Origin: Eutreptiella sp. 'Long Island Sound 2002'
Taxonomy: Eukaryota > Euglenozoa > Euglenophyceae > Eutreptiales > Eutreptiaceae
Direction: 5' to 3'
Length of the DNA stretch: 64,000 nucleotides
Assembly: GCA_964036045.1 (NCBI GenBank)
Contig: OZ038378.1
Location: forward strand, 38,193,228-38,257,227
Part shown: in pieces, positions 8,862 through 64,000 of the stretch
How the letters are laid out: each line of letters starts with the position of its first letter
Numbering within the stretch: the stretch's first letter is position 1
Notes under the pieces: generated by a model
The model's database searches: none
What the model was told of the DNA's origin: nothing
The model's input: only the letters and a program-made list of their open reading frames with translations
Translations under genes and position numbers: made by a program

Positions 8862-9877
8862 CTAAACACCCTGCCCATATTCTTCGTGATTGCCCGAAAC
8901 ATGTTCAATGCATACATTGTGAATAACCCGGGTTCGCATTCCAATAGCAACAAACACTTGCCGGGGTAGAACACTACGGTTACCAGAATCGATGTAATAA
9001 CACATTTCTTGATTGGTGGGAGCACCACCCATGTCGACGTAGCAAGCACTGAAATTCACGATTGTCACCCCAATTGAGCCATGAAGTGTTGGTTGCATCG
9101 TTGCAGGGCATTTCTACATCCAACTAGCATAGGAGCATCTTCAAGGTCTTAGAGTGAGACATTGGAGTTTGGGCTAACGTGTTGCTGAAGAGTGACGTGG
9201 TTTTCCTCCGTTTCCTCTCCAATACGCACACGATTAAGCAAGTCAATGAATTGGGCGTAGTTTTGGCGCATACCTTCGGTTAATGCGAATGGCATGAAAT
9301 GGTTTCGAAAAAGGAAGCCGTCAAAAATAGCTCAATCGATGACGGGAAGCTGCAATGGATCGCCCACAAGGAGCACGGTGATGCTCCCAAAAGGATTGCG
9401 CTTCTCACCGTGCACATGTGTGGTGTTTCATGCAATGTGTCAACGAACTTGTTTGAGAAAAATTGGAACTCATCGACAATGATATTTTCGGCATTACGAA
9501 TCATCCACCACAAGGTTGTGCCCTCCTTTATTTGCCTCTCAAGATCCAAAGACAAGGAGAAGGGGCTGTGGATGGGACGTCCTCAAACAGTAAGGGCCGC
9601 TGCGCCACTAGCACGACATACTAAGATTCCAAAACCTAGCGCTCGCAGCTTGGCAATCAATAAGCAAACAACGTGCGATTTGCCAATTCTTGGAGCTCTT
9701 GTGAGAATGGAACACAACTGCAGAGGGCTACCTCCGCTTGATGCTCGGCACTGAGGAGAACTATCCGGGCCATGTTCAAGATTTCGCCGTTGGACGTGGG
9801 TAATAAAGGTCTCAAAAACTAAATGTTGCCCTAAGTTCAGTGCCTTGACAAGGGCTTCTGCGACTCGAGGGTCCGTG
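8862..9877 (-). pseudogene. PIF1-like (Helitron-type) helicase, broken
   Basis: Read on the minus strand, the frame opens with DPRVAEALVKALNLGQHLVF and reaches a degenerate Walker A (RAPRIGKSHVV in place of GPAGTGKS, about 9690-9660). It continues with GRPIHSPFSL, matching the PIF1 GRTIHS block, then IIVDEFQFF (Walker B, about 9490), NPFGSITVLLVGDPLQLPVI (motif III, GD-QLP) and LTEGMRQNYAQF (motif IV, RQ). Near 9000-8900 GMRTRVIHNVCIEH matches the conserved GM-V-L-N block. An in-frame TGA precedes GRPIHS, a frameshift lies near 9407, and another stop follows motif III. The gene is therefore dead. Its upstream end at 9878 is the insertion point of the TIR transposon, beyond which the frame resumes at 16806. 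Confidence 0.8.
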
Positions 9878-44347: not shown

Positions 44348-46474
44348 GGCCGGCACACCACAGAGCCCCCGACAAGAGCGTGCGTCCAAGCGGGCGGCGC
44401 AACAACAACCAACACAACACCACGCGGCCACAGGGAGCCGGGGACACCGAGCATCACCTGCCAGGAGCGGAGCCCTACCCGGCCCCACGAATACGGGGGC
44501 GGTGGGTACCCAGCCCGGGTAGCCCCCCGGCACCGCACACCCGCACAGGGTACCGGCGCCGAGCCCCACAGGGAGCCCGCAACCCCTAACACCACCCGTC
44601 GCGCCGGCGCACGGCCCACGGCCGGCAGCCAGCCAAGCGGCAACAACACAGGCCGCCCGCACCATGGCACACCTGACCGGCCGGCAGCGGACCCAACGTA
44701 CACGCCGACCAACAACCTCCCCACACAGACACACACCGCTACCCGGACCTACGCCACCGCCGCCCGGCCCTCCGACGCCGGGCACCCCCACACCCACGGC
44801 CCCACCAGGGGCCTAACCCCCCAGGCTTCGGCGACGTCCGGCACGGAGGTCCTACCGGCCACAACGCACGGCGGGCCGGTGCCCCAGCGGCACCACGCCC
44901 CACCAACCGGACCGCCGGCATCGCCGGCAGAACCGTCATCTCCCGGCCGCCAGGCCCCTGGCCCAGGCCCCGGCCCGGATCCGCCACGCACCGCCGCCCC
45001 AGCGGACGCCCCGCAGCCCGCGGACCCGGGGAGCCTACCCGAGCCGCCACCCGTGGCGGGAGGCCACGCCCGGGGGGCACCGCCACCGGCGGACGATGGC
45101 ACCGAACCGCCTACACCGCCGACCCAACCGCAGCGCGACGCGCCCGCCCTGGGCGCGGAAGGACTGCAGAGACCCCGGCAACGAACGCCGACACCAGCAC
45201 CAATGGGGGAACCTGGCGGGGGAACGGACCAGCCATCAGTGCGGAGTGCCGACCTGACGAACGAAACGGCACACGGAGGCGACGAGGCATTGGCAGATGG
45301 CCAGCCTGAGGCGGAACCCGAGGGGCCAGCTCCGGACACCGGGTGTGCGGACGGCCCCCACCGGCCCTCGGCCGCGGATAACGGGGGCGCCGCCCCCCGG
45401 GCGAACCTGGCAACCCGCGCAGGCGCGAGCACGCCAGGGGAGGCGCTGCAAGGAGATCCACCCGAAACCAGCGCGGGGTCAGAGGCCCGGGAAACCACGC
45501 CCGACACGCCCCAGCGCGCGGACGAAGGAGGAACGTCACCCAGCGGGCACAACCGCGACGACGACTCCTTCGATGCCTTCATGGACTCCTGCAGGGATGA
45601 CCCCCAGGCGGTCCCAGCACCGGAGACGCCACGCGTCCAACCGGAGCCGCAACGCGACCAGGCGGACGATACGCCCCTCACGGTGCCACGAAAAGCGCAC
45701 CTCCAGCGCGACTACACCACCCTGGGGCAGATTGCCACCACGGGCGAGGGGCAGGCGACCGCGAGGGGCGCGACGGACCGGACTACGGAAGAGCACAACG
45801 CCCCAGGTGAGGGCAAGCGCGTGGAAGCGGCCACCCACACCGCGAGTGAGCCTGTCGCCCCACCGCCGGGGGCCGCCCCGCCCTGGGGGCGGGGACACCT
45901 GGACTATGCACGCTTGGAGGGTGACGCCAGCCACCCCAGCGAACAAGCGGAGCAAGAAGCGACCCAAGACCTAGGCTTCTGGATCCCCAGGCTTGTCACA
46001 GGGGAGCAGCTCGAACTGGCGGTCCGCATACGATGGGTACTTCCTTCGCGGTCCCGCCACTTCGCGGAGGGAACACGCACCATGGCAGACATCACGTTTG
46101 GTCATCGGACAGGGCACACGCCCCCCGCCACCATGGACCACCCCGGCCAATGGCGCTATGTGGCCACCCGGCTCATGGCGCATATGGGAGCCTACAGCCC
46201 AGATGAAATGAACGGACTGCACTGGCGGTGGCACCAGCGCGCCGCCCTGCGCATCCGTACGGCCATGCAGGACCATAATATCTGGGACATCCCTGGATCA
46301 CCGGGCTACCAGGGACACGCCTCAGGCCACTGGCAGCCGCGGTCCCAAGACGTCCCGGAGCCCCCCAGGCAGGCGGCGCGCCGAAACTCACCGGAACACC
46401 CACGGGGTCCACCACCCGGTAGGGGTTCCCCCTCTGGCACATACAGCAGCCCCATGCGGCCGTTCACTTTCTGA
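44348..46474 (+). CDS. LINE N-terminal ORF, Pro/Ala/Glu-rich, function unknown
   Basis: The frame is open from just after a TAG at 44345 to the TGA at 46472-46474. The first ATG is at 45203 (PAPMGEPGGG), leaving about 423 codons, so either that ATG or a non-AUG start is used. The first two thirds are low-complexity Pro/Ala/Gly/Asp. The last 150 residues look folded: DLGFWIPRLVTGEQLELAVR, RWVLPSRSRHFAEGTRTMAD, MNGLHWRWHQRAALRIRTAM, with many Trp and Arg. I do not recognise the domain. Being upstream of the AlkB ORF, it is probably an ORF1-type RNA-binding protein of the LINE. It ends 212 bp before the next ATG. Confidence 0.5.
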   Translation, partial: GRHTTEPPTRACVQAGGATTTNTTPRGHREPGTPSITCQERSPTRPHEYGGGGYPARVAPRHRTPAQGTGAEPHREPATPNTTRRAGARPTAGSQPSGNNTGRPHHGTPDRPAADPTYTPTNNLPTQTHTATRTYATAARPSDAGHPHTHGPTRGLTPQASATSGTEVLPATTHGGPVPQRHHAPPTGPPASPAEPSSPGRQAPGPGPGPDPPRTAAPADAPQPADPGSLPEPPPVAGGHARGAPPPADDGTEPPTPPTQPQRDAPALGAEGLQRPRQRTPTPAPMGEPGGGTDQPSVRSADLTNETAHGGDEALADGQPEAEPEGPAPDTGCADGPHRPSAADNGGAAPRANLATRAGASTPGEALQGDPPETSAGSEARETTPDTPQRADEGGTSPSGHNRDDDSFDAFMDSCRDDPQAVPAPETPRVQPEPQRDQADDTPLTVPRKAHLQRDYTTLGQIATTGEGQATARGATDRTTEEHNAPGEGKRVEAATHTASEPVAPPPGAAPPWGRGHLDYARLEGDASHPSEQAEQEATQDLGFWIPRLVTGEQLELAVRIRWVLPSRSRHFAEGTRTMADITFGHRTGHTPPATMDHPGQWRYVATRLMAHMGAYSPDEMNGLHWRWHQRAALRIRTAMQDHNIWDIPGSPGYQGHASGHWQPRSQDVPEPPRQAARRNSPEHPRGPPPGRGSPSGTYSSPMRPFTF

Positions 46475-46686
46475 GTGTCTATTTTTTTTCGATTGACCCT
46501 CAGCATTTTGTTGATGGATCCACCAGTAGTCCAGGCTATTCGGTGATTGGAGAAAATCCTGGGCTGTTCAAGTTCTGGAGCCTTTCCCGCAGTTTTCAAA
46601 TCATCATCTCAATTCCCGAGTTCAAATCCACGCTCGCAATCTTTCAATTGACGCCAAGCCACCTTTTCGTTCATCCCGAAAACACC

Positions 46687-49398
46687 ATGAATTTCACCCT
46701 ATTTGGAAGCTCCAAAGCCGCCGATGATGGCCTTTCAACGCTATTCAACTATTCTCCGTCACACCTCTTTCAAAAACACCAAGCCTCAAATTCGCCGTTG
46801 CAAACACGCTTTCCGTCACGCCAACTTGAAGCCATTGAAGGCAAAATATTTGACACACGCCAACGCATTTTCGTTCCCGAAGTCTACCGCCGACTACAAG
46901 ACTACTCCGAGTTTTACCTGGATGTGGAAGGCACCGATATTCAATCCGCCTTCGTACGGAGCAACTCCACGGAAATTCTAGATCGAGGTAGGGTCTCTTC
47001 CGTTGCGCACAATAACTACAACGAGCTCGAAAAGCTTTTGTTCAAGCACAAGCGTTTCTACCTAAAGCCGTATGAGTTGGACTATTCCCAAGCCGAAGCC
47101 AAGGGGTCTCCACCCACCGCCACCCCGTGGGCTAAACAATTAAGAACCGTGCTAGATAAAGCCAAAGAAGAGAACAAAGACCTCAAAGGATGGTTCGTTA
47201 TTCCGGCGTGGGACGCTCAAGTGGTTGCCGCCACCTTTCGCATGCTAGGCTCAACTTCCGCCCTTTTTCCTCTTCTTCCGTACATTTCTAGCGTGATATG
47301 TATGCACGGGGCGCAACTCCGGGACGCCTACAAGGTCAAAAGGGACGGCAAAGACTCCTACGAGTTCCGCACGAGCGGCCACCAAACGATGCCGTATGTT
47401 GCCTTGCTCCTAAACACCTCTTCCTTTGACGGGTGCCGATATGAAGACATCAATTTTAAGTTTGAACCTTTCCGCTTCGCCGCCAAGCACGCCCATCCAA
47501 CGGTGCGAGACCTCCGGTTGCACAAAACACTACGTTTTGAGGTGAGCATAGAATTCCTTGATCACATTGAGCCTTCGCCGCCGGAAGAGAGAGATAAAAC
47601 TACACCAAGGCAACGCAAAATTGGAGACGCCCGTGCTTTCATGAAGTTAATGAACGAAATGTTTGTCCCCGCGCTAGCAAACGTATCGGTGAACACCAAA
47701 AATGCCTACTACCCGTTTGGCCACATAGTCCCTTCCGAGAGCCCGCATTGGGCCTACTACCGGTTTGATTGGGAACTCCCATCTCGCTTTGCCGACGAGC
47801 TCATGTTTAAGGTCCGAGAGTGCGCCCAATTCCTCACCGGAGAACTCCTTGCAATGGACATGCACGCTTTGCCGACTACCGAAGTGTATCGAGCCGTGAT
47901 CGCTAGGGACCGAAAGGAAAGAAACAAAGACCTACAAGCTCCGGAAATGCTCACCATGATGATCGCCAACCTGCCCGGTGGACGGGGCGCCTCACCGCCC
48001 CTAGGAGCGATGTTCCGGTCTAAAGACTCCTTGGTCGTGGCGATTGACACCACTCACGCGCCGTGCGACGTCATGAAGACCGGTGTCCAAACATTAGCTA
48101 TCCGCTTCTTCCACTCATGCGGCATTGTCCTCTTTCATGGCATAGATGGGCAATTAGTGCGGTTCTCGTCACGATCCGACGGCAACGCGAGGTCCGCGCC
48201 TTCGGGCGCCCCCGAGCGAGCCCACGCGACGCCGGCCCCGCCCTCATACGACTCATCTATGGCCCCGAAGACCGCCGTGCTCCTAGTGGCCCCAAGATCG
48301 GCGCACGCTCTCGACTTGCGCGTCCAAGCGGGGTTTCTTGGCCCGTACGTGTCGTTCGAGCCCACGCGGCCTCCCTACGAACACCAACAAGCCTACCTCG
48401 TGGTCTACGAAAAGGGGGAATCCGCGCTGCTAGCGCATGATTTCAAATATGGAGACGCTGCCTTTGCCCCACTACACCGCAACCTCATCGCCCTCGAGAA
48501 GATCCTCCCCGCTCAAGACCCGGATGTGGCCGAGCACGAGCAACCCATAGTGCAGCGCCTCCAAGCGGGAGCCGCCTTGGGGTCCACGGCCTTCGTGTCC
48601 CAACTTGTCACCGCCCTTCGTGAAAGGCCCGCTACGGGGCTGACTGAGCGCATCAGCGAGTGGAACGCGGCACCGGAGGACGCCGGCGCCGCTACGCCAA
48701 CGCCGGGACCAAGCCGCATCGAAGAGATGTCCGAGACCAGCGTCCCGCTGCTTGCTCCACTAGGAGGCGAGGCGACCACCCTCCTACCCCCCGACCACGG
48801 TGCCCCCACCCCCGCCTCGGATATTCAAATCGACCCCCGCCTCCCCGCTGGTTTTTATTACGTCCGCGACGTATTCTCCGAAAGCCAAGAGGAAACGGTA
48901 AAAAAGATTCTCCACAACAACACGTGGGAGAAGTACCACGGGCGCTCAGTCCAACACTTCGGCCACGCATACCTCGGCCCGAGCAAAGTCGCCGCCACGT
49001 CCCCCATCCCGGAAGAGTTTTCCTCCATCCTCCAAACCTACAATGCCGCGCTGGAGCGGCTAGGCCTCTCACACCCTCCTCCCAACCAAATCACGGGCAC
49101 AATGTATCTCCCGGGAGAGGGCATCGGCTACCACGGGGACGACCCCTTGCTAGGCGACCCAGTGTCCATTTTTGGTTCCCAATCGGACACCACAATGTTC
49201 TTTAAGAACCCCTCCAACGGGGACTCCTTTCGCATCCGCCTGTTTGCCCGCTCTCTCCTGGTCCTCACGGGGGCCGCACGCCATGAGTGGCACCACGGTA
49301 TACCTCGACGGAGAGAAGACGAAGTGTTTGGGCTAACCGTCCCTCGTACCGTCCCTCGCCTCGCTCTAATCCTCCGACACATACCACAGGCAAGCTAA
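46687..49398 (+). CDS. LINE ORF with C-terminal AlkB-type 2OG-Fe(II) dioxygenase domain (903 aa)
   Basis: I prefer the ATG at 46687 (AACACCATGAAT) to the upstream GTG opening. Residues 1-500 form an unassigned domain with folded character (FRMLGSTSALFPLLPYISSV, PSESPHWAYYRFDWELPSRF). A linker and a strand-rich part (VLLVAPRSAHALDLRV) follow. From about residue 718 an AlkB domain runs to the end: LPAGFYYVRDVFSESQEETV, YLGPSKVAA, GTMYLPGEGIGYHGDDP with the HxD iron ligands His816/Asp818, then the distal His in HEWHHGIPRR (about 870). It closes with R-LALIL-R (RxxxxxR), the 2-oxoglutarate and substrate-binding signature of AlkB. AlkB enzymes remove alkyl or methyl groups from DNA or RNA bases. 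Here it may repair or demethylate the element RNA or cDNA. No stop or frameshift interrupts the 903 codons. Confidence 0.85.
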   Translation: MNFTLFGSSKAADDGLSTLFNYSPSHLFQKHQASNSPLQTRFPSRQLEAIEGKIFDTRQRIFVPEVYRRLQDYSEFYLDVEGTDIQSAFVRSNSTEILDRGRVSSVAHNNYNELEKLLFKHKRFYLKPYELDYSQAEAKGSPPTATPWAKQLRTVLDKAKEENKDLKGWFVIPAWDAQVVAATFRMLGSTSALFPLLPYISSVICMHGAQLRDAYKVKRDGKDSYEFRTSGHQTMPYVALLLNTSSFDGCRYEDINFKFEPFRFAAKHAHPTVRDLRLHKTLRFEVSIEFLDHIEPSPPEERDKTTPRQRKIGDARAFMKLMNEMFVPALANVSVNTKNAYYPFGHIVPSESPHWAYYRFDWELPSRFADELMFKVRECAQFLTGELLAMDMHALPTTEVYRAVIARDRKERNKDLQAPEMLTMMIANLPGGRGASPPLGAMFRSKDSLVVAIDTTHAPCDVMKTGVQTLAIRFFHSCGIVLFHGIDGQLVRFSSRSDGNARSAPSGAPERAHATPAPPSYDSSMAPKTAVLLVAPRSAHALDLRVQAGFLGPYVSFEPTRPPYEHQQAYLVVYEKGESALLAHDFKYGDAAFAPLHRNLIALEKILPAQDPDVAEHEQPIVQRLQAGAALGSTAFVSQLVTALRERPATGLTERISEWNAAPEDAGAATPTPGPSRIEEMSETSVPLLAPLGGEATTLLPPDHGAPTPASDIQIDPRLPAGFYYVRDVFSESQEETVKKILHNNTWEKYHGRSVQHFGHAYLGPSKVAATSPIPEEFSSILQTYNAALERLGLSHPPPNQITGTMYLPGEGIGYHGDDPLLGDPVSIFGSQSDTTMFFKNPSNGDSFRIRLFARSLLVLTGAARHEWHHGIPRRREDEVFGLTVPRTVPRLALILRHIPQAS

Positions 49399-49481
49399 CC
49401 CACGAAAGCCAGAGGGCCGGGTACCCGCCTCCTGCACTGTCCAGCCCCCTCTACCTGAACACAAAAGGGCCAAGATTCAGT

Positions 49482-52400
49482 GAACCACCGGCCCAGTCAC
49501 GGCTTCCACCATCACAGGCAAGGGGCTAGACGACGAGCTCACCTCGGCCGGGATACCGGCCGACCAAATTCAGCACTTTCTTTGCCTTAGCCAGCCCAGC
49601 CAGCCCGGCTCCCCAGTGCCCCCCCAGCCCCCCCCTATCCCGCCCCCCCCGAGATCCAAAACGCGCCTACGGAAGGGTTACCAACGGCCTCACCGCCCCC
49701 CCATACCCCTCCCTTCAGAACTGCGTTTTCTATCCCACAACTTGCAGAAGAAACCCATAGTGAGCAGCCAAATTCTCCGACACCTCAAGAACGACTTCGA
49801 CATCCTCTTCCTCCAAGAAATCAATCACGCCCCCATCCTCCCCCACGTATACGCCTACGGTTCGGGCACTAAAGCCACCATCGTTTCGAATATCAGCCAA
49901 GACAAACACTCCAGAGGCGAGCATGGTTCCGTCTTGGTCTGTTCCCCCCGGCTCTCCCGCTTCGTTACCCCCCTTCCCCGGCTAGATACAGAAGGGATGC
50001 TGGCGGCAGCCGTTCTCACTCTCCCGGGGGCCCCGCCCACCTTGCTGGTCTCGGTATACGCCCCAAGCACGGACGTCCACCGCTCAAAAATTGAAAACAT
50101 CCTACGGCCACTCATGCATCAGTATCCTAACCACGTCCTCGGTGGGGACACCAATTGCATAATGTGCCCTGAACTAGACGGATCGAACCTCCAAACGGAC
50201 AACGAATGGCCGTGGCTTCGCAGACAGATCACGAGCGACCCGCCGCGCCTCATCGATACCTTTCGGCACTTTCACCCGACCGAGCGGTCCTTCTCCCGAT
50301 ACCCCACCCCGTACAGGGCAAGCAGTAGCCGCCTTGACCATATTTTGCTCTCCCCGGCGGCCTCGGAATTTTTTGCCCCCACCTCTGCAACCATCCAAAC
50401 CGACGACAAAACGTCAGACCACCACCCAGTCACGTACACCTCTCAAGTCCCCCCTCACCCTTTTACCGAAGCTCCCACAACTAAGAGGAAAGTTTTCCGA
50501 AAACTGACGGAGCGGGAACGCTCCAAGCACCACGACTCCCTTGCCCCCCTGGCGCGGTGGTGCGAGTCTACCCTCCCCCGCTTTGAGTCCTTGTCCTCGG
50601 CGGACATCGAGCTTTTCACAGACGTCGTGCTGGAGGAAGTGGCGACCAGCTACCACAGTATCACCACGCCGTCACGCCCTACCTCCTCGGCTCTGGTAAA
50701 GAAAATCAAAGAGTCCCTGCAAACCCTGCCTCCCCCCAGCCATCCCAACTACCCCGCTTCCATGGACACGCTCAACAAACTCGTCAAGGAGTGGGAAACC
50801 AAAGTGAACAAGGCCGCAACCACCAAAATCCATCGGTGCCTAGTGAGGAAAACTAGGGTCAAACGCACCATCAACGAGGCGCTCAACCCCGTGGAACGAG
50901 GTGAAATAACGCTGAAGCGCCCGGGCACCACACAGCTCGTCTCCACCCCCAAAGAAGTGGGCTCTATTTTCTCTTCTACACTCCTCACCCTGGGGGGCAG
51001 CCTCGAATACGCACCGCCGAACACTCTAGTGGATCGCCTACTCGCACACTCCCCCGCCTGCCCCGAACCCACAAAACACGGCCTCCTCCCTGACATTACC
51101 TGGGAATCGTTACGCAACACGCTTAAGAGATCCAAGCCCAACAAGGCGGGGGGGCGGGACTTCACAAACAACTACACTTTGCACGTCTCCCCCCCCCCTA
51201 TCCAACAATTCATTTGGAAGGTATGCAACTACTACCTCCACCGGCCGTTGCCCGAGAAATGGCTCGAAGCCAACATTATCTTGCTTTTTAAGAAAGGGGA
51301 CGTGATGAACCCGGTAAATTACAGGCCTATAGCATTGCTGAACAGCGTTTACAAAATAATTGCAACACACGCCAACCGAGAGCTACTGGCAGCGGCCATT
51401 GAACATTCCATCATACACCCCACCCAGTTCGGCGGGCTTCCGAACCGCAGATGCCAGGACCACATTTTCAACCTCTTATCCACGTTTCGGGAATCGGTCG
51501 GTAGCTACAGCCTCTACATTGATTTCAATAAGGCTTTTAACTCCGTCCCCCACACCACCCTCTTCACAGTTCTATCCCGCCTGAACTTTCCTACGCCCCT
51601 TGTAAACCTCATTCAATCCTTGTACCGTGCCCCTCGCGACTTCCCAGTGGTGTCAGGTCAAACCCACTCCTCACACCTGCAAACCAGAGGCGTTCGGCAA
51701 GGATGCCCCATGTCACCAATCCTTTTCTGCCTCTACCTGAATGTGCTCCTCTTCGCCTTGCCGTCCCACGTCACTGCACCCCCCTCCCCACACGAATCGG
51801 GCCACGCCTTTGTTGACGACCTCCTCTATCGATCAGAGAATGGGGACCGCATACAACAAGTTTTAAACTTCTTCGACACGGTCGCCAGGGAGTGGGGTCT
51901 AGACCTTAACCTCAGCAAAACCGAGATCCACGCTATGGGAACAGCTCCCCCCAGAACCTTCACCTCCCCCTCGGGCACCCCCCTGTCGACAACAAACCAA
52001 AAGACGAGGCAACCACACAATTGCTACAAATACCTAGGGGTATACATCTTCACCGCCAACCATGAGGCACAAACACTGGCATTGGCCAAGTCGGAAATAC
52101 GCTCATTTTTCACAACCCTCCAACCCCTCCAGCTCACCCTTTCGGAATACATTCTCTTGGTGAACGTCCAACTCATCCCTATTCTTTCCTACCGCCTCAT
52201 GGCACACCCCCTGGCCCTGAACGAGTTGGGGGCCCTTCAGGCCATGATCTGGCAAAATGTTGCGCATGACCCCTCCCCGGACAGAGCCAACAGGATCTCC
52301 CGCCTCGTCTCCCCTAAGGCCCGCTACACCCCTCGCCACCAGGGAGGCTTAGGACTCCGCCACTTCACTTTTTCAATTTGCATGGCCCTGGTAAACACCG

Positions 52401-54529
52401 CAATAAGGTACCTCAACGGAGACGGCCCGGCCTCGACAAACGAATCTTTTTCCGAAGCAATGCTCTCCACCACACGCAACCCAATCCAAGACACCATCAT
52501 GGACGCATGCCACGCCATAGGCTTCCGATACCACAGCACCGGCCTCTGGGCCTCCTGCCCCCCCTCCCTTTTCCTCCCAAAAGAAAAAGTCCAGGTCCGG
52601 TTCCTAGCCACCAAGCCGGCACCACAATACAGCAAGTTCGGCAACAGATTAAAACGGACGCCCCAGGACCTGGGGTTCCACCTAGGTACAGTCACGGAAG
52701 TGCACTCAGAATCGGCCACACTCCAGTTTTCGGACGGCACCACCCACACCATCAAAAACCCCGGTCTCCGCCGCAACGAGAAAGAATACACCTTTCAAAA
52801 CCCAGCCATTTCTGTCCTCCCTCAACTGGCGGGGCGCCACGAACTGCTCACCCCCCCCCTTCTTCACCCTCAAGAATACATCCTCAACCCCCCCCCCGGG
52901 CCATACGGCGGGGTCCTACTCGACTCGTCACTGCATGGCGAGCTGTACCGGCTCCCAGATGAACCTCACTCCCTTGACCCCGACGACCTCGAAGAATGGG
53001 GTTGTGAAGCAGCCCTTGCCCTCCTCCTCGCATCGTCCCCCGGCACGACATGGGTGTACTTGGATGGCTCAGCGGGCGCCTTGGGCTACGGATCGGCGGC
53101 CACCCTGTTTTTTCCAAATGGCTCCAGATGGGTACTGTGCCAAACGTCCCCGTACCAGTCATCAGAGGGATCGGAGTTCTGGGCCGCTATTATGTTCCTA
53201 CGGTGGGCCCTTGCATCTCACCCGCACCTCACCTTCGCCGTGCTAGGGGACAACCTCCACGTTATCACTGTTCTCTCTCCGAACACCCCCCCAGGCCTCC
53301 CATCACGCTCGCCAGCCGGCACGTGGGAATCCTCTCTCCAGTCCTTTCAGGCCTCCCTACGCCCAGGGATGATCCAGGGTTGGGGGTGGATCAAGGGGCA
53401 CGCCGGGTTCGTGGGGAATGAAATCTCAGATGCTTACTCAAAGTGGGCCGCCCACGTGATGGTCTGGGACCCCTCCCTCCTTCCCCCCCCCCCGATAGGG
53501 TGCATATCCAGGGGCCCCCTCCCAGTCATACACAAATTGACTACAACCTCAATCAAGCATCTCCTCCCTCGCCACAAACACGAAAACATCCACGCACCGT
53601 CCAGCTTCCATTTTTACAATCACACTTCGTGGTTCAAAGGCCTCCCTTTCAAATGGTCCTCCGGAAATTTCAACATGGCGCCATTTGCTTTCCACGACGA
53701 CTTGCGCCCTCGCCATTGCCACGCTTGCCCCGACCCGCACCCGATGGATGTTATCTCTTTCGTCTCACACTGCCCAACGTGCGAACACCTGGTCCAATCC
53801 TACATTCAATGCTGGCGCCCCCCCTTCACCACGGTGGTGTCCCAATGGTGGTCCGCGACCACACACGTGGGGGAGAGACGCAATTTCGTCCGGGGGCTTG
53901 TTCCCATGACGCTGTACACCAAACTCACAACCCCCCCCTCCGGCCGAAGAAAACCAGCACACTGCCACGACTTAAAACTCGCCCTGAAGGATCGTGTTCC
54001 CCTGCTCCTCAGCGCCCTATACCGCACGCTGGAATGGCTAAAAGACCACCCCCCCCCAGCCCCGCTCACCCCCCCTACGGGCCCCAACTCATGGGGACGC
54101 CCCTGGTCGCCCTACAGCACGTCGCACACCGCCCAACAACGCCCCCCCCCCGCCTACCACCCTCCCCCCCCCCTCCCGGACAAAGTTGCACACAAGCCCC
54201 CAAAACGCCCCCGCCCCCCATCTCCTGCGGCACACACCAAAACTCGAAAACACGGCCGCCAGCCCCCAAGGCCCGTCCGGCCTCTATCACTGAAACGCGG
54301 TACCGCAAGTCAACCCCAGCCAGAGCCTCCGCCCCCCAAACGGCCGCTCACAATCAGGGACATGTTCAACCTCCCCCCCCCCCCTAGACCAGCACCCCCC
54401 CTCGCCGCCTCCGCCCCCATTTCCGCCCCTTCTCCTCGCATAACAAGGTACTTCGCACCAGCCCCCCCCTCCCCCGCGAGTACAAACTCACAATCGTCCT
54501 CACACTCGTCCAACGTGTCATCTCTTTGA
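49482..54529 (+). CDS. LINE ORF2: APE endonuclease, reverse transcriptase, RNase H
   Basis: The frame is open from a TGA at 49479-49481 to 54529 with no ATG until 49997, which would remove the first endonuclease motifs, so initiation is non-AUG or depends on upstream translation. The endonuclease shows SHNLQKK, LFLQEIN (catalytic Glu), VSVYAPS, GGDTN (Asp), SRLDHILLS and TSDHHPVTY (His). RT shows NYRPIALLNSVYKII, QFGGLPNRRCQDHI, SLYIDFNKAFNSV (motif A), VRQGCPMSPILF (motif B) and AFVDDLL (motif C, about 51811). RNase H shows WVYLDGS, SSEGSEFWAAI, AVLGDN and GNEISDAYSKWA (D-E-D-D). A Cys/His cluster, CHACPDP...SHCPTC, follows near 53715-53780, then a Pro-rich tail. All catalytic residues are in place over some 1,640 codons, so this copy could be recently active. 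Confidence 0.9.
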
Positions 54530-55089
54530 AAAAGCCACACTTACACATTTTCTCACGCCGACCCTCGACAGCCCTAGCGGCGCGATCAATCAGTACTACC
54601 ACACTGGCACTCACCAGTCACTTCTGCAAATGAATCCCTCCCCCAAGCCACCCCCCGTGCTCAAGCCGTCATGCTCTAACCCCCAATCCGCAACCACACC
54701 GCCTTCGGGTATCAAGCGGAGACCCCGGCCTGCGGTTGTCTATAACGGGGCTGCCAAGTCTCTTTGAGATGAAGCAGACGAGGACAGCAACGTGCAGCGG
54801 TACTCAGCCCGCGATTGAACTTGATTTTGGGCTCCCGCCCCTCCCCAAAAAAGCTTGGCGCGCAAGAGCCTTTCTCCCCGGCCTGGCCAGCCACAAAAGG
54901 CGCCGTTCAGTGCAAAAAAAAAGCCCCATGCGGCCGTTCGCCCCACGGAGGAGCCCGGGCAGTCCCCACGCCTCGAGGGTGCAAGGCGACACGCCGAAGC
55001 AGCGCCAAGAGATGAGGCACCCTGGCCGATCCCGTCGCCGCGGCCGCACGCCGCCCCCCGCAGCGTGACGAGTCGTCTTCAATGAGGAT
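54530..55089 (+). other. Inter-ORF region of the LINE
   Basis: It has no clear gene. AAGCCCCATGCGGCCGTTC at about 54922-54941 repeats CAGCCCCATGCGGCCGTTCA found at the 3' end of the first LINE frame (46449). This may be a duplicated segment boundary. Confidence 0.45.
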
Positions 55090-59745: not shown

Positions 59746-60099
59746 AAGGGCTGCAACACTGCCCGGTACTCCTGTCCTCCACAACCCTACCCGGGGCATG
59801 CGGGGGGCCACAAGCTCACCACACGGGGCCGCGCCGGCCCCCCTGCCAACAGGCACGGGTGTGTTACGCCGAGCCCAACCCGCCACGTCGGACGGAGCGT
59901 CCAGACACCACAGCACAAGCCGAACCACGCTAACCATCCTAGCCACCACACCCAGCACCGTGACGCAGACACGCCACCCGAATGACCCGCAACCCACGAC
60001 ACGAGAAGGCGCACGGCAGACAGACAGGGCCAAGCACGAGCACAGCACCACCGAGCTGGAACAACACCCTGGGGCTCCCATGGAGAGCACAAGGAAACA
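59746..60099. other. GC-rich flank, no gene
   Basis: Composition matches the LINE 3' region on the other side of the TIR element (57.9-58.1 kb), so the TIR element probably inserted into LINE-related or satellite-flanking DNA. Both-strand open frames reflect the high GC content. Confidence 0.4.
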
Positions 60100-60840
60100 C
60101 CGAGGTGCAAGCGGAGCACACACACAGCCCAACACCCCAGCCAGGAGTGGCGGGGCGCAGCCAAAACCCAAGCCCAAAGACACACACCCACACCGCGCAC
60201 CCGTGGCCAGGAGTGGCTGGGTGCAAGCGGAGCACGCACACAGCCCAACACCCCAGCCAGGAGTGGCGGGGCGCAGCCGAAACCCGAGCCTAAACACACA
60301 AACCCACACCGCGCACCCGTGGCCAGGAGTGGCTGGGTGCAAGCGGAGCACGCACACATCCCAACACCCCAGCCAGGAGTGGCGGGGCGCAGCCGAATCC
60401 CGAGCCCAAACACACACACCCACACCGCGCACCCGTGGCCAGGAGTGGCTGGGTGCAAGCGGAGCACACACACAGCCCAACACCCCAGCCAGGAGTGGCG
60501 GGGCGCAGCCGAAAATCGAGCCCAAAACACACACACCCACACCGAGCACCCGTGCCAGGAGTGGCTGGGTGCAAGCGGAGCACACACACAGCCCAACAGC
60601 CCAGCCAGGAGTGGCGGGGCGCAGCCAAAACCCGAGCCCAAACATACACACCCACACCGCGCACCCGAGGCGAGGAGTGGCTGGGTGCAAGCGGAGCACA
60701 CACACAGCCCAACACCCCAGCCAGGAGTGGCGGGGCGCAGCCGAAACCCGAGCCCAAACACACACACCCACACCGCGCACCCGTGGCCAGGAGTGGCTGG
60801 GTGCAAGCGGACCACGCACACAGCCCAACACCCCAGCCAG
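60100..60840 (+). repeat. 116-bp satellite array, about 6.3 units
   Basis: CCAGGAGTGGCGGGGCGCAG recurs at 60141, 60257, 60373, 60489, 60605 and 60721, exactly 116 bp apart, and a truncated start is at 60837. Each unit has a second related box, GGCCAGGAGTGGCTGGGTGC, and CACACCCACACCGCGCACCC. The array breaks off in the middle of the box into a GTAG run. The period is not a multiple of three, so the long frames through it are not genes. Confidence 0.9.
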
Positions 60841-60858
60841 GTAGGTAGGTAGGTAGGT
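60838..60858. repeat. (GTAG)n run at the array edge
   Basis: Four to five tandem AGGT/GTAG tetramers lie directly after the last truncated 116-bp unit. This could be a LINE-type 3' tail or simple slippage. Confidence 0.75.
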
Positions 60859-61320
60859 GCACTCGGTCGTGGAGAGGCGCCCCATGGTTCCCCCTGGCGT
60901 CGCCCCTGTGACGAACAGGAAGAGGCTCCGCGCGTGAAGAGGGGAGGCGGCTTACATCCCGCTAGACCTGACTTTTGGCCCCCAACAAAGCGGCCCCGGG
61001 CTACACCGGGAGGGCTGTTCGCCGCCAGCGTGACGTGCTTGTCTCGCCGGGAGGCTGGGCCCCCGTGCTTGCGCACGTCCCCTCCTTTGGGCGGAACCCT
61101 AGGGGTTCACCGGACTTCCTGGCGTATCCCGTTCCCAAGGCATGCATGCATGTTCTTGGTACTAGGGTTCCGAGGCGCTTGGGTGTCGCACGCTCCGCCT
61201 CGAGTCCCAAAGCAGCGCTGGCCTTAGGATGCAGCCTTACCCCCGGGCTCCGGATCTCGTTTGGCCGGGTCACCTGCATGGCGCGGGCTGCCTCAGTGCC
61301 TTGGCTGTGGGCACTGGGTT
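60859..61320. other. Unique GC-rich spacer between the two satellite arrays
   Basis: No gene. It contains a CATGCATGCATG short repeat at 61141-61152 and several GGGAGGCTGG / CCGGGCTACACCGGG hairpins. Its position between inverted satellite families makes it the likely pivot of the arrangement. Confidence 0.4.
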
Positions 61321-62040
61321 TCCTACTGCTGGCTTGCGTTGGTGGTTGGGTCCGGGTTGCGGTTGGTCGTGGGTTTTGTTTTCACCTGCCCGTCGTGGCT
61401 GGGGTCTTGGGTGGGTGTGTTTGGGCTCGGTTTGTGGTGTTGTCCCTCTTTTGCCGGCTGTTTGTGGTGTTCGTGGTTGGGCTTTGGTGTCGGCCCGCTT
61501 TCGGGATGTGTGTGGTTTCGTGCGCGTTTCCCTTGGCCCCTGCCGCGGTGTGGGCGTGCGTGCTGGGCCCGGGTCTCGGCTGTGCCCCGCCCTTCTTGGC
61601 TGGGTTGTCGGGGTGTGTGTTTTTTTTTTTTTCTTTTGTTTTTTTTTTGTTTTTCCGGTTGCTTGGTGTCCCCGTCCCGGGCCTTCTGGTCTCTCCCCCC
61701 GTCTCCTTTCTTTTTGGCTGGGCTGCTGGCTTTTTTTTTTTTTTTGTCTGCTTGTTTCGGTGCCCCTTTTCCCGCTGGGCCGCTGTTCCTGGCTTGGTGT
61801 TGCCGGTTTTTGCTGGGTGGTCCCCCTGTGCCTGTTTGGGGGTCCTGTCTTCGGTGCCTTCTGGGGGGGGGGTTTGGCCTCCTTTTCTGTTTTTGGCGGG
61901 CGGTTTGGTGGCTGTGGGCTCTTTTCGCGCGGCCCCCCTTTCCCCGCCCCCCCTTTTTTTTTTTTTTTTGGGGGGGGGGGGGGGGGGCGGGGGGGGGGTC
62001 GGCCTCGCTGTTTCTCCCTTTGCCTTCCCTCGGCTGGCGC
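61321..62040 (-). repeat. Degenerate inverted copies of the 116-bp unit with homopolymer blocks
   Basis: The reverse complement of 61527-61620 reads ACACCCCGACAACCCAGCCA, then AGAAGGGCGGGGCACAGCCG, then ACACCGCGG, a diverged 116-bp unit. A second diverged copy lies at about 61370-61450. Between are T-rich blocks (61620-61665, 61728-61746) and an almost continuous G run at 61969-62000 containing one C, the longest in the window. Confidence 0.6.
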
Positions 62041-64000
62041 TTGCTCTGTGGCTGGTGTGTGGTGTGGTTGGTCCCTCGCCACTCCTGGCGGAGGTTCCTG
62101 TGTGCTACTCCCCGCCACTCCTGGCTGGGTTTCGCTGCCGCTGGTGGTGGGCGGTCCCCGCCACTCCTGGCTGGGGTCCGTTGGCGGCGCTGGTGTGTGG
62201 TGTGTGGTGTGTGGCGGTGGTTTGCTGGTGGGGTTGTGGCTGGTGTGTGGTGTGGTTGGTCCCTCGCCACTCCTGGCGGAGGTTCCTGTGTGCTACTCCC
62301 CGCCACTCCTGGCTGGGTTTCGCTGGCGGCGGTGGTGTGTGGTGTGTGGTGTGTGGTGTGTGGCGGTGGTGTGTCGTTGGGGTTGTGGTTGGTGTGTGCT
62401 GTGGTTGGTCCCTCGCCACTCCTGGCGGAGGTCCCTGTGTGCTACTCCCCGCCACTCCTGGCTGGGTTTCGCTGGCGGCGGTGGTGTGTGGTGTGTGGTG
62501 TGTGGTGTGTCGCGGTGGTGTGTTGTTGGGGTTGTGGTTGGTTTGTGGTGTGGTTGGTCCCTCGCCACTCCTGGCGGAGGTCCCTGTGTGCTACTCCCCG
62601 CCACTCCTGGCTGGGTTTCGCTGCCGGTGGCGGTGGGCGTTCCCCGCCACTCCTGGCTGGGGTCCGCTGGCGGCGGTGGTGTGTGGTGTGTGGTGTGTGG
62701 TGTGTGGCGGTGGTGTGTTGTTGGGGTTGTGGTTGGTGTGTGGTGTGGTTGGTCCCTCGCCACTCCTGGCGGAGGTCCCTGTGTGCTACTCCCCGCCACT
62801 CCTGGCTGGGTTTCGCTGCCGCTGGTGGTGGGCGGTCCCCGCCACTCCTGGCTGGGGTCCGTTGGCGGCGGTGGTGTGTGGTGTGTGGTGTGTGGCGGTG
62901 GTTTGTTGGTGGGGTTGTGGCTGGTGTGTGGTGTGGTTGGTCCCTCGCCACTCCTGGCGGAGGTTCCTGTGTGCTACTCCCCGCCACTCCTGGCTGGGTT
63001 TCGCTGGCGGCGGTGGTGTGTGGTGTGTGGTGTGTGGTGTGTGGCGGTGGTGTGTCGTTGGGGTTGTGGTTGGTGTGTGGTGTGGTTGGTCCCTCGCCAC
63101 TCCTGGCGGAGGTCCCTGTGTGCTACTCCCCGCCACTCCTGGCTGGGTTTCGCTGGCGGCGGTGGTGTGTGGTGTGTGGTGTGTGGTGTGTGGCGGTGGT
63201 GTGTTGTTGGGGTTGTGGTTGGTTTGTGGTGTGGTTGGTCCCTCGCCACTCCTGGCGGAGGTCCCTGTGTGCTACTCCCCGCCACTCCTGGCTGGGTTTC
63301 GCTGCCGGTGGCGGTGGGCGTTCCCCGCCACTCCTGGCTGGGGTCCGCTGGCGGCGGTGGTGTGTGGTGTGTGGTGTGTGGTGTGTGGCGGTGGTGTGTT
63401 GTTGGGGTTGTGGTTGGTGTGTGGTGTGGTTGGTCCCTCGCCACTCCTGGCGGAGGTCCCTGTGTGCTACTCCCCGCCACTCCTGGCTGGGTTTCGCTGC
63501 CGCTGGTGGTGGGCGGTCCCCGCCACTCCTGGCTGGGGTCCGTTGGCGGCGGTGGTGTGTGGTGTGTGGTGTGTGGTGTGTGGTGGTGGTGTGTTGTTGG
63601 GCTTGTTGTTGGTGTGTGGCGGTGGTGTGTTGTTGGGGTTGTGGTTGGTGTGTGGTGTGGTTGGTCCCTCGCCACTCCTGGCGGAGGTCCCTGTGTGCTA
63701 CTCCCCGCCACTCCTGGCTGGGTTTCGCTGCCGCTGGTGGTGGGCGGTCCCCGCCACTCCTGGCTGGGGTCCGTTGGCGGCGGTGGTGTGTGGTGTGTGG
63801 TGTGTGGTGTGTGGTGGTGGTGTGTTGTTGGGCTTGTGGTTGGTGTGTGGCGGTGGTGTGTTGTTGGGGTTGTGGTTGGTGTGTGGTGTGGTTGGTCCCT
63901 CGCCACTCCTGGCGGAGGTCCCTGTGTGCTACTCCCCGCCACTCCTGGCTGGGTTTCGCTGCCGCTGGTGGTGGGCGGTCCCCGCCACTCCTGGCTGGGG
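62041..64000 (-). repeat. Higher-order satellite array running off the window
   Basis: CCCTCGCCACTCCTGGCGGA anchors lie at 62073, 62261, 62410, 62559, 62753, 62942, 63091, 63240, 63434, 63666 and 63898. Spacings are 188, 149, 149, 194, then 189, 149, 149, 194, then 232, 232. The first eight form two 680-681-bp higher-order units. Long units contain an extra GGTGGGCGGTCCCCGCCACT block, and short ones lack it. The reverse complement carries CCCAGCCAGGAGTGGCGGGG, shared with the 116-bp array. TGTGTGG runs separate the blocks. Confidence 0.85.

Follow-up and report, generated by a model that had tools for sequence, protein, structure and literature searches.

An AlkB-type dioxygenase domain closes ORF1 of a full-length LINE in Eutreptiella

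Two open reading frames (ORFs) lie next to each other in a 64,000-nucleotide stretch of the Eutreptiella sp. 'Long Island Sound 2002' genome (assembly GCA_964036045.1, contig OZ038378.1, positions 38,193,228 to 38,257,227), which is here called the window. The downstream frame, ORF2, has the endonuclease and reverse transcriptase (RT) of a long interspersed nuclear element (LINE), and an earlier note made from the letters of the window alone had claimed that the upstream frame, ORF1, ends in an AlkB-type dioxygenase. Does such an enzyme belong to the retrotransposon, and if so, what would a LINE do with it?

A full-length LINE with an AlkB domain in ORF1

The window element is a full-length, young, two-ORF LINE in which an AlkB 2-oxoglutarate/Fe(II) dioxygenase domain closes ORF1. 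Both ORFs lie between two copies of the same 18-bp sequence (46448 to 46465 and 54922 to 54939), and because the second copy comes right after a run of A, the 8456 bp from 46466 to 54921 form a single insertion with the hallmarks of target-primed reverse transcription. The run is an A9 tail (54914 to 54922) whose final A is common to the tail and the duplication. No direct repeats of at least 25 nt were found at the element ends when looked for between 40000 and 64000, so there are no long terminal repeats (LTRs).

All features of the element are on the forward strand. ORF1 (46687 to 49398) runs for 903 codons from its ATG without a stop, as had been claimed, and its frame is already open from 46543, inside the 5′ untranslated region (UTR; 46492 to 46686). 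The AlkB domain takes up about residues 715 to 903 (48829 to 49395) and follows a conserved region that has no match to a known fold; outside AlkB, ORF1 matched nothing in Pfam, NCBIfam or PDB, and a second Pfam domain was found neither in the family of the window element, family A (E up to 0.01), nor in the related families B and C (E up to 0.1). The Pfam profile PF13532 (2OG-FeII_Oxy_2) matches the window ORF1 at 48994 to 49320 with an E value of 2.5e-7 and 31.5 bits, just over the cut-off of 31.2 and marginal taken alone, and scores 52.8 bits in family B ORF1 and 44.6 in family C. A phmmer search of the window ORF1 against PDB gave Schizosaccharomyces pombe P8A3.02c (E 3.1e-13), human ALKBH8 (6.7e-13) and ALKBH6 (4.5e-10), so the profile check that the earlier note had proposed came out in favor of AlkB. 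The signature read from the letters is also in place, with the HxD motif at H816 and D818 (49132 to 49140), the distal His at H870, the last H of HEWHH (49294 to 49296), and R891 and R897 (49357 to 49359 and 49375 to 49377) at the positions expected for the 2-oxoglutarate arginines. In AlkB enzymes generally, the HxD motif and the distal His bind the iron and two arginines bind 2-oxoglutarate.

We then have to ask whether the AlkB ORF could be a host gene or a chance neighbor of the LINE. That explanation is refuted by the duplication that ORF1 shares with the rest of the element, by many copies with the same junctions and by the same gene order in three families. In the 2.28-Gb genome, the ORF1 search scored 48 of 3408 candidates, the window copy included, and all 48 places are full-length, 99 to 100% identical and stop-free. 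We fetched 20 of the 47 places other than the window as 10-kb stretches. The ORF1-ORF2 unit is collinear and full-length over ∼8.45 kb in 14 of them, while in the six others (L009, L014, L020, L021, L026, and L028) the unit is cut short, has deletions or is rearranged within the fetched stretch. Other copies thus keep ORF1 next to the LINE RT, as proposed earlier; copies lacking ORF1, the proposed refutation, were absent among those fetched, which is not a fair test since the copies were found through ORF1 itself. Among protein clusters, the best ORF1 row has 163 member sequences and the best ORF2 row 372.

Seventeen copies, the window included, have both ends within the stretch; all 17 carry an A run and 16 a target-site duplication, of which 15 are exact, at 14 to 20 bp, and one (L023) has a single mismatch, L011 having none. 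The elements SLACS and CZAR insert site-specifically into spliced-leader RNA genes; unlike theirs, the 16 duplications of family A are all different in sequence.

Mean ORF1 difference among 20 copies is 0.33% (L022 was left out of this set, its alignment ending two bases early). The variants common to at least two of these copies number 10, all of them synonymous, where ∼28% silent changes would be expected without selection, and they split the copies into two sublineages, of 13 and 7, plus a set of two. Singletons in ORF1 comprise 43 silent and 12 replacement changes (4 and 1 in the AlkB part), a silent excess that is partly a result of choice because the copies were picked by ORF1 protein score, which also makes ORF1 intact by choice in the fetched copies. 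ORF2 was under no direct selection in this sampling. Among 15 full-length copies, the window included, it is free of stops and indels in 10, has a one-base gap in L011, L015, L023, and L025 and a stop in L022; its singletons in 11 gap-free copies are 53 silent, 48 replacement and 1 stop, again with ∼28% silent expected.

Related families and the origin of the domain

A search of the genome with PF13532 gave 151 matches from 1107 candidates, 150 of them scored, with internal stops in 11 listed rows and open frames of ∼100 to 1546 aa. We fetched 11 matches that looked cellular and 22 that looked like transposable elements or were unclassified, and the latter fell into 14 of family B (L029 to L039, L041, L046, and L047), 6 of family C (L042 to L044 and L048 to L050) and 2 of family D (L040 and L045). 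In family B, L029 has ORF1 with AlkB followed by an open ORF encoding endonuclease, RT and RNase H, and L030 has the same order with a broken ORF2. In family C, L051 has ORF1 with AlkB followed by endonuclease and RT in two broken frames, the RT part being 91 to 96% identical to the sequence P0022. The AlkB domain is thus directly upstream of endonuclease and RT in B and C too. ORF1 is homologous end to end among the three families, at 24 to 27% identity over 833 to 863 aligned residues (BLAST E values of 1e-79, 1e-38, and 7e-55), and pairwise ORF2 identity among A, B and P0022 is 37 to 41%.

A six-row alignment of families A, B and C has H816, D818, H870, R891, R897 and a Tyr invariant. Because such divergent families all keep the C-terminal AlkB domain with its catalytic residues, the domain is old in these LINEs and apparently kept by selection; a recent one-off capture of AlkB is ruled out by the three divergent families. 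The dN/dS comparison that the earlier note had asked of the copies gave pairwise AlkB ratios of 0.40 in family B (45 pairs from 10 of 14 sequences, leaving out L029 and L030, which had no anchor, and L046 and L047, whose 3′ ends are altered) and 0.27 in family C (10 pairs from 5 of 6 sequences, leaving out L043 for an indel). The choice of copies by Pfam score pulls these values down, and neutral decay of inserted copies pushes them up.

The same residues bear on whether the domain is a catalytically dead module, retained only for RNA binding or for structure. The bacterial AlkB motif is R-x-N-x-x-x-R, and the position of its N is A or S in the LINE AlkBs, which fits such a loss, but an invariant set of H, D, H, R, R and Y across families with ORF1 at 24 to 27% identity is unexpected without catalysis, and we regard a dead domain as quite improbable.

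In a tree with the 11 cellular-looking AlkB genes, the LINE and family D domains join L056 and L057 (support 88/86, not starred), and the AlkBs of A, B and C share one branch (71/80, not significant). BLAST scores among the A, B and C domains are 66 to 96 bits versus at most 57 bits to any of the 11 cellular-looking genes. L056 and L057, the nearest host genes in the tree, have by eye a motif style like that of the LINE AlkBs, and the simplest reading would be that one host gene of their kind was captured once.

Family D (L040, L045, and L052) has AlkB frames of 365 to 377 aa, two of its copies being 93% identical over 174 aa. No RT was found within ∼2.4 kb downstream of the AlkB frame in the L052 context, and we keep this family outside the LINE count. 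A QRKLPDFF motif, which resembles a PCNA-binding box, stands ahead of AlkB in L052. Beside the family B copy L029, the minus strand of the last 0.7 kb of the stretch has what by eye is a Ty3/gypsy-type pol fragment.

Spliced leader at the 5′ ends and the second ORF

The 26-mer ACTTTCTGAGTGTCTATTTTTTTTCG opens all 21 family A copies, the window included (46466 to 46491), in 18 of them exactly; L017 and L019 have one extra T, and L014 has its first base changed at a rearranged junction. The family B copy L029 likewise opens with the spliced leader. This 26-mer is printed as the complete Euglena gracilis spliced leader in an excerpt of PMC6242988, which alone among the papers found contains the 24-nt string, and the Eutreptiella leader is given, in the part of PMC3621762 seen, as a 28-nt form with two more bases at the 5′ end. 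In the window, the C at 46465 would be nucleotide 2 of that longer form, and 20 of the 21 copies have a C directly ahead of the 26-mer, 15 of them as part of the dinucleotide AC. By these bases, reverse transcription got as far as nucleotide 1 or 2 of the 28-nt form in all but one of the 21 copies, although some such bases could belong to the target site, and our way of choosing copies left out 5′-truncated ones. In the L023 stretch, at 8983, right after the A tail and duplication of that copy, other sequence opens with the spliced leader altered at one base and is apparently a different retrocopy.

Since the spliced leader stands at the head of the copies and adjoins the insertion point, we infer that the template of retrotransposition is a trans-spliced mRNA carrying the host leader. 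Outrons of E. gracilis end in a C-rich tract followed by a terminal CAG, according to an excerpt of PMC11170887, and since a copy opening with the leader has lost this site, most copies may be unable to receive a leader by the same route. That the sublineages are few would agree with only a few source copies. Such a source would carry a C-rich tract, then CAG, immediately ahead of ATTGACCC in place of the leader, and one or a few of these would account for the sublineages of 13 and 7 copies. How new copies get transcribed is a question that leader-starting copies raise.

The window ORF2 (49616 to 54529, 1637 aa counted from a GTG) has an endonuclease (PF03372) and an RT (PF00078) in one ORF, as does the family B copy L029. 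An RNase H (PF00075) follows the RT with 31.8 bits in family B (cut-off 25.8) and with 22.6 bits, under the cut-off, in family A. In the window copy, ORF2 has no ATG up to and including the point where the endonuclease domain begins. The first ATG of the open frame comes within that domain, at frame residue 173 in the window (49481 to 50000) and 149 in L029, with the domain motif at residues 84 and 64. Translation of ORF2 therefore probably begins at a codon other than ATG, whether by re-initiation or in some other way. The 3′ UTR extends from 54530 to 54913.

The order endonuclease-RT-RNase H is also that of the trypanosomatid ingi/L1Tc elements. The window LINE resembles them further in being a euglenozoan non-LTR element in a host with spliced-leader trans-splicing, but ingi/L1Tc have a 5′ Pr77 promoter and unspliced transcripts (PMC8190864, in excerpt), whereas the copies described here begin with the spliced leader. 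These 5′ ends indicate movement as mature trans-spliced mRNA, unlike the Pr77-driven trypanosomatid transcripts.

Possible roles of the AlkB domain, known systems and surroundings

A profile built from the AlkB domains of the three LINE families matched ALKBH8 in PDB at 7.6e-28, P8A3.02c at 2e-17, ALKBH6 at 1.5e-12, an entry named DNA N6-methyl adenine demethylase at 5.5e-12 and ALKBH7 at 1.6e-7. Matches to ALKBH2, ALKBH3, and ALKBH5 were weak (E 0.001 to 0.12; 0.001 to 0.022 for ALKBH2 and ALKBH3), which rules out a repair enzyme of the ALKBH2/3 type as closest kin. Human ALKBH8 (PDB 3thp) and S. pombe P8A3.02c (5yl6) are the best sequence matches, but they are cellular enzymes. ALKBH8 proper has an RNA recognition motif (RRM) before its AlkB domain and a methyltransferase after it. 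By sequence, the LINE domain is ALKBH8-like, and neither of these was found with Pfam in ORF1.

Our best explanation, to which we give a probability of about one-half, is that the AlkB-LINEs copy their trans-spliced mRNA and that the AlkB domain of the ORF1 protein strips base methyl groups from the element RNA. Read from the copies, the RNA that serves as template is the trans-spliced element mRNA with its host leader, and target-primed reverse transcription inserts the copies at many sites. The ORF1 protein would bind this RNA, and either ahead of reverse transcription or in its course the AlkB domain would oxidatively strip it of base methyl groups that could otherwise stop the RT or flag the RNA for surveillance. 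One plausible target would be the leader/cap end, because the RT must read to it for a full-length copy. Trypanosome leaders bear a heavily methylated cap, and if euglenids also have a methylated cap, the cap end would be an attractive target. That the domain clears base methylation in the leader/cap region and elsewhere so that the RT can reach the first nucleotide, an epitranscriptomic eraser built into the LINE ribonucleoprotein and linked to the chemistry of 5′ ends in a trans-splicing host, is a tentative and rather doubtful extension.

Some points limit the case for RNA demethylation. ALKBH8 is known for hydroxylation of the tRNA wobble uridine, so that demethylation is not the sole possible chemistry. 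For the double-stranded beta-helix fold expected of an AlkB enzyme, AlphaFold models had a mean predicted local distance difference test score (pLDDT) of 38 for the AlkB domain alone and 25 for ORF1 with 13 family rows, too low for a fold search. The picking of ORF1 copies by protein score and of AlkB copies by Pfam score favors intact frames and lowers dN/dS.

The affinity to ALKBH8, its best solved match, together with the tree position and motif style of L056 and L057, could also speak for an action on the host, in which the domain would alter tRNA as ALKBH8 does or disturb host RNA defense and so aid translation or survival of the element RNA in trans. The RRM and methyltransferase of ALKBH8 were not found in ORF1, however, and fusion to ORF1, which in other LINEs is an RNA-binding protein, suggests an effect on the element's own ribonucleoprotein. 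An action on the host seems to us distinctly unlikely.

The domain might instead act on DNA and remove methyl marks or lesions (N6-methyladenine, 3-methylcytosine, or similar) at the target site, on nascent cDNA or in the inserted copy, thereby countering silencing or repair. The N6-methyl adenine demethylase entry among the profile matches would favor this, as do two retroelements with nucleic-acid-modifying enzymes, a Gypsy element of orchids (PMC9289625, in excerpt) and a LINE of Symbiodinium (PMC5890265, in excerpt). The ALKBH8 match nevertheless exceeds that entry by ∼16 orders of magnitude in E value, and the ALKBH2/3 repair types are weak matches; DNA as the substrate is unlikely in our view, though far from negligible.

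Coming back to demethylation of element RNA, both of these elements can be set beside the window LINE. In the same excerpt of PMC9289625, the AlkB of the Phalaenopsis Ty3/Gypsy element, a 2-oxoglutarate-dependent dioxygenase (2-ODD), is reported to demethylate N6-methyladenosine RNA in vitro and to bind RNA. Like the window element it is a retrotransposon with an added AlkB domain, but it is an LTR element of the Tat family with an extra, ALKBH5-like ORF, found only in Phalaenopsis in that screen, whereas the window element is a non-LTR, endonuclease-RT element with an ALKBH8-like AlkB at the C terminus of ORF1, of an age that spans families whose ORF2 is 37 to 41% identical. Like the window element, SymbioLINE-Dnmt of Symbiodinium is a LINE with a nucleic-acid-modifying enzyme in the ORF that precedes the RT ORF, with several lineages and with purifying selection; the enzyme there is a cytosine methyltransferase, a writer, while that of the window LINE is a demethylase-type oxygenase and a probable eraser (PMC5890265, in the part seen).

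Retroelements that write methyl marks are thus already known, and here a LINE lineage has a probable eraser built in. Its retention while ORF1 diverged to 24 to 27% identity suggests that LINEs are truly hindered by modified bases in element RNA or DNA, a question that becomes testable in a free-living alga. The earlier note had left open whether AlkB had been described in LINEs; we found no report of it in open-licence PMC text among the matches listed, Repbase being outside that search. The part of the Diplonema genome paper seen (PMC10161547) counts a dozen AlkB-type homologs and makes no link to transposons there. The terms "AlkB," "retrotranspos," and "transposable" are absent from the main text of the E. 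gracilis draft-genome paper (PMC6366073), and neither AlkB nor oxygenase occurs in PMC6338049, on accessory domains in retrotransposons.

Around the element, the insertion splits a proline-rich frame (44348 to 46465 and 54940 onward) whose joined flanks make 748 open codons; the part of it within the ORF at 44879 to 46474 had no Pfam match. Farther downstream, 59974 to 64000 is occupied by tandem arrays with units of 116 bp and of ∼149/195/231 bp, and their base composition is strongly strand-skewed.

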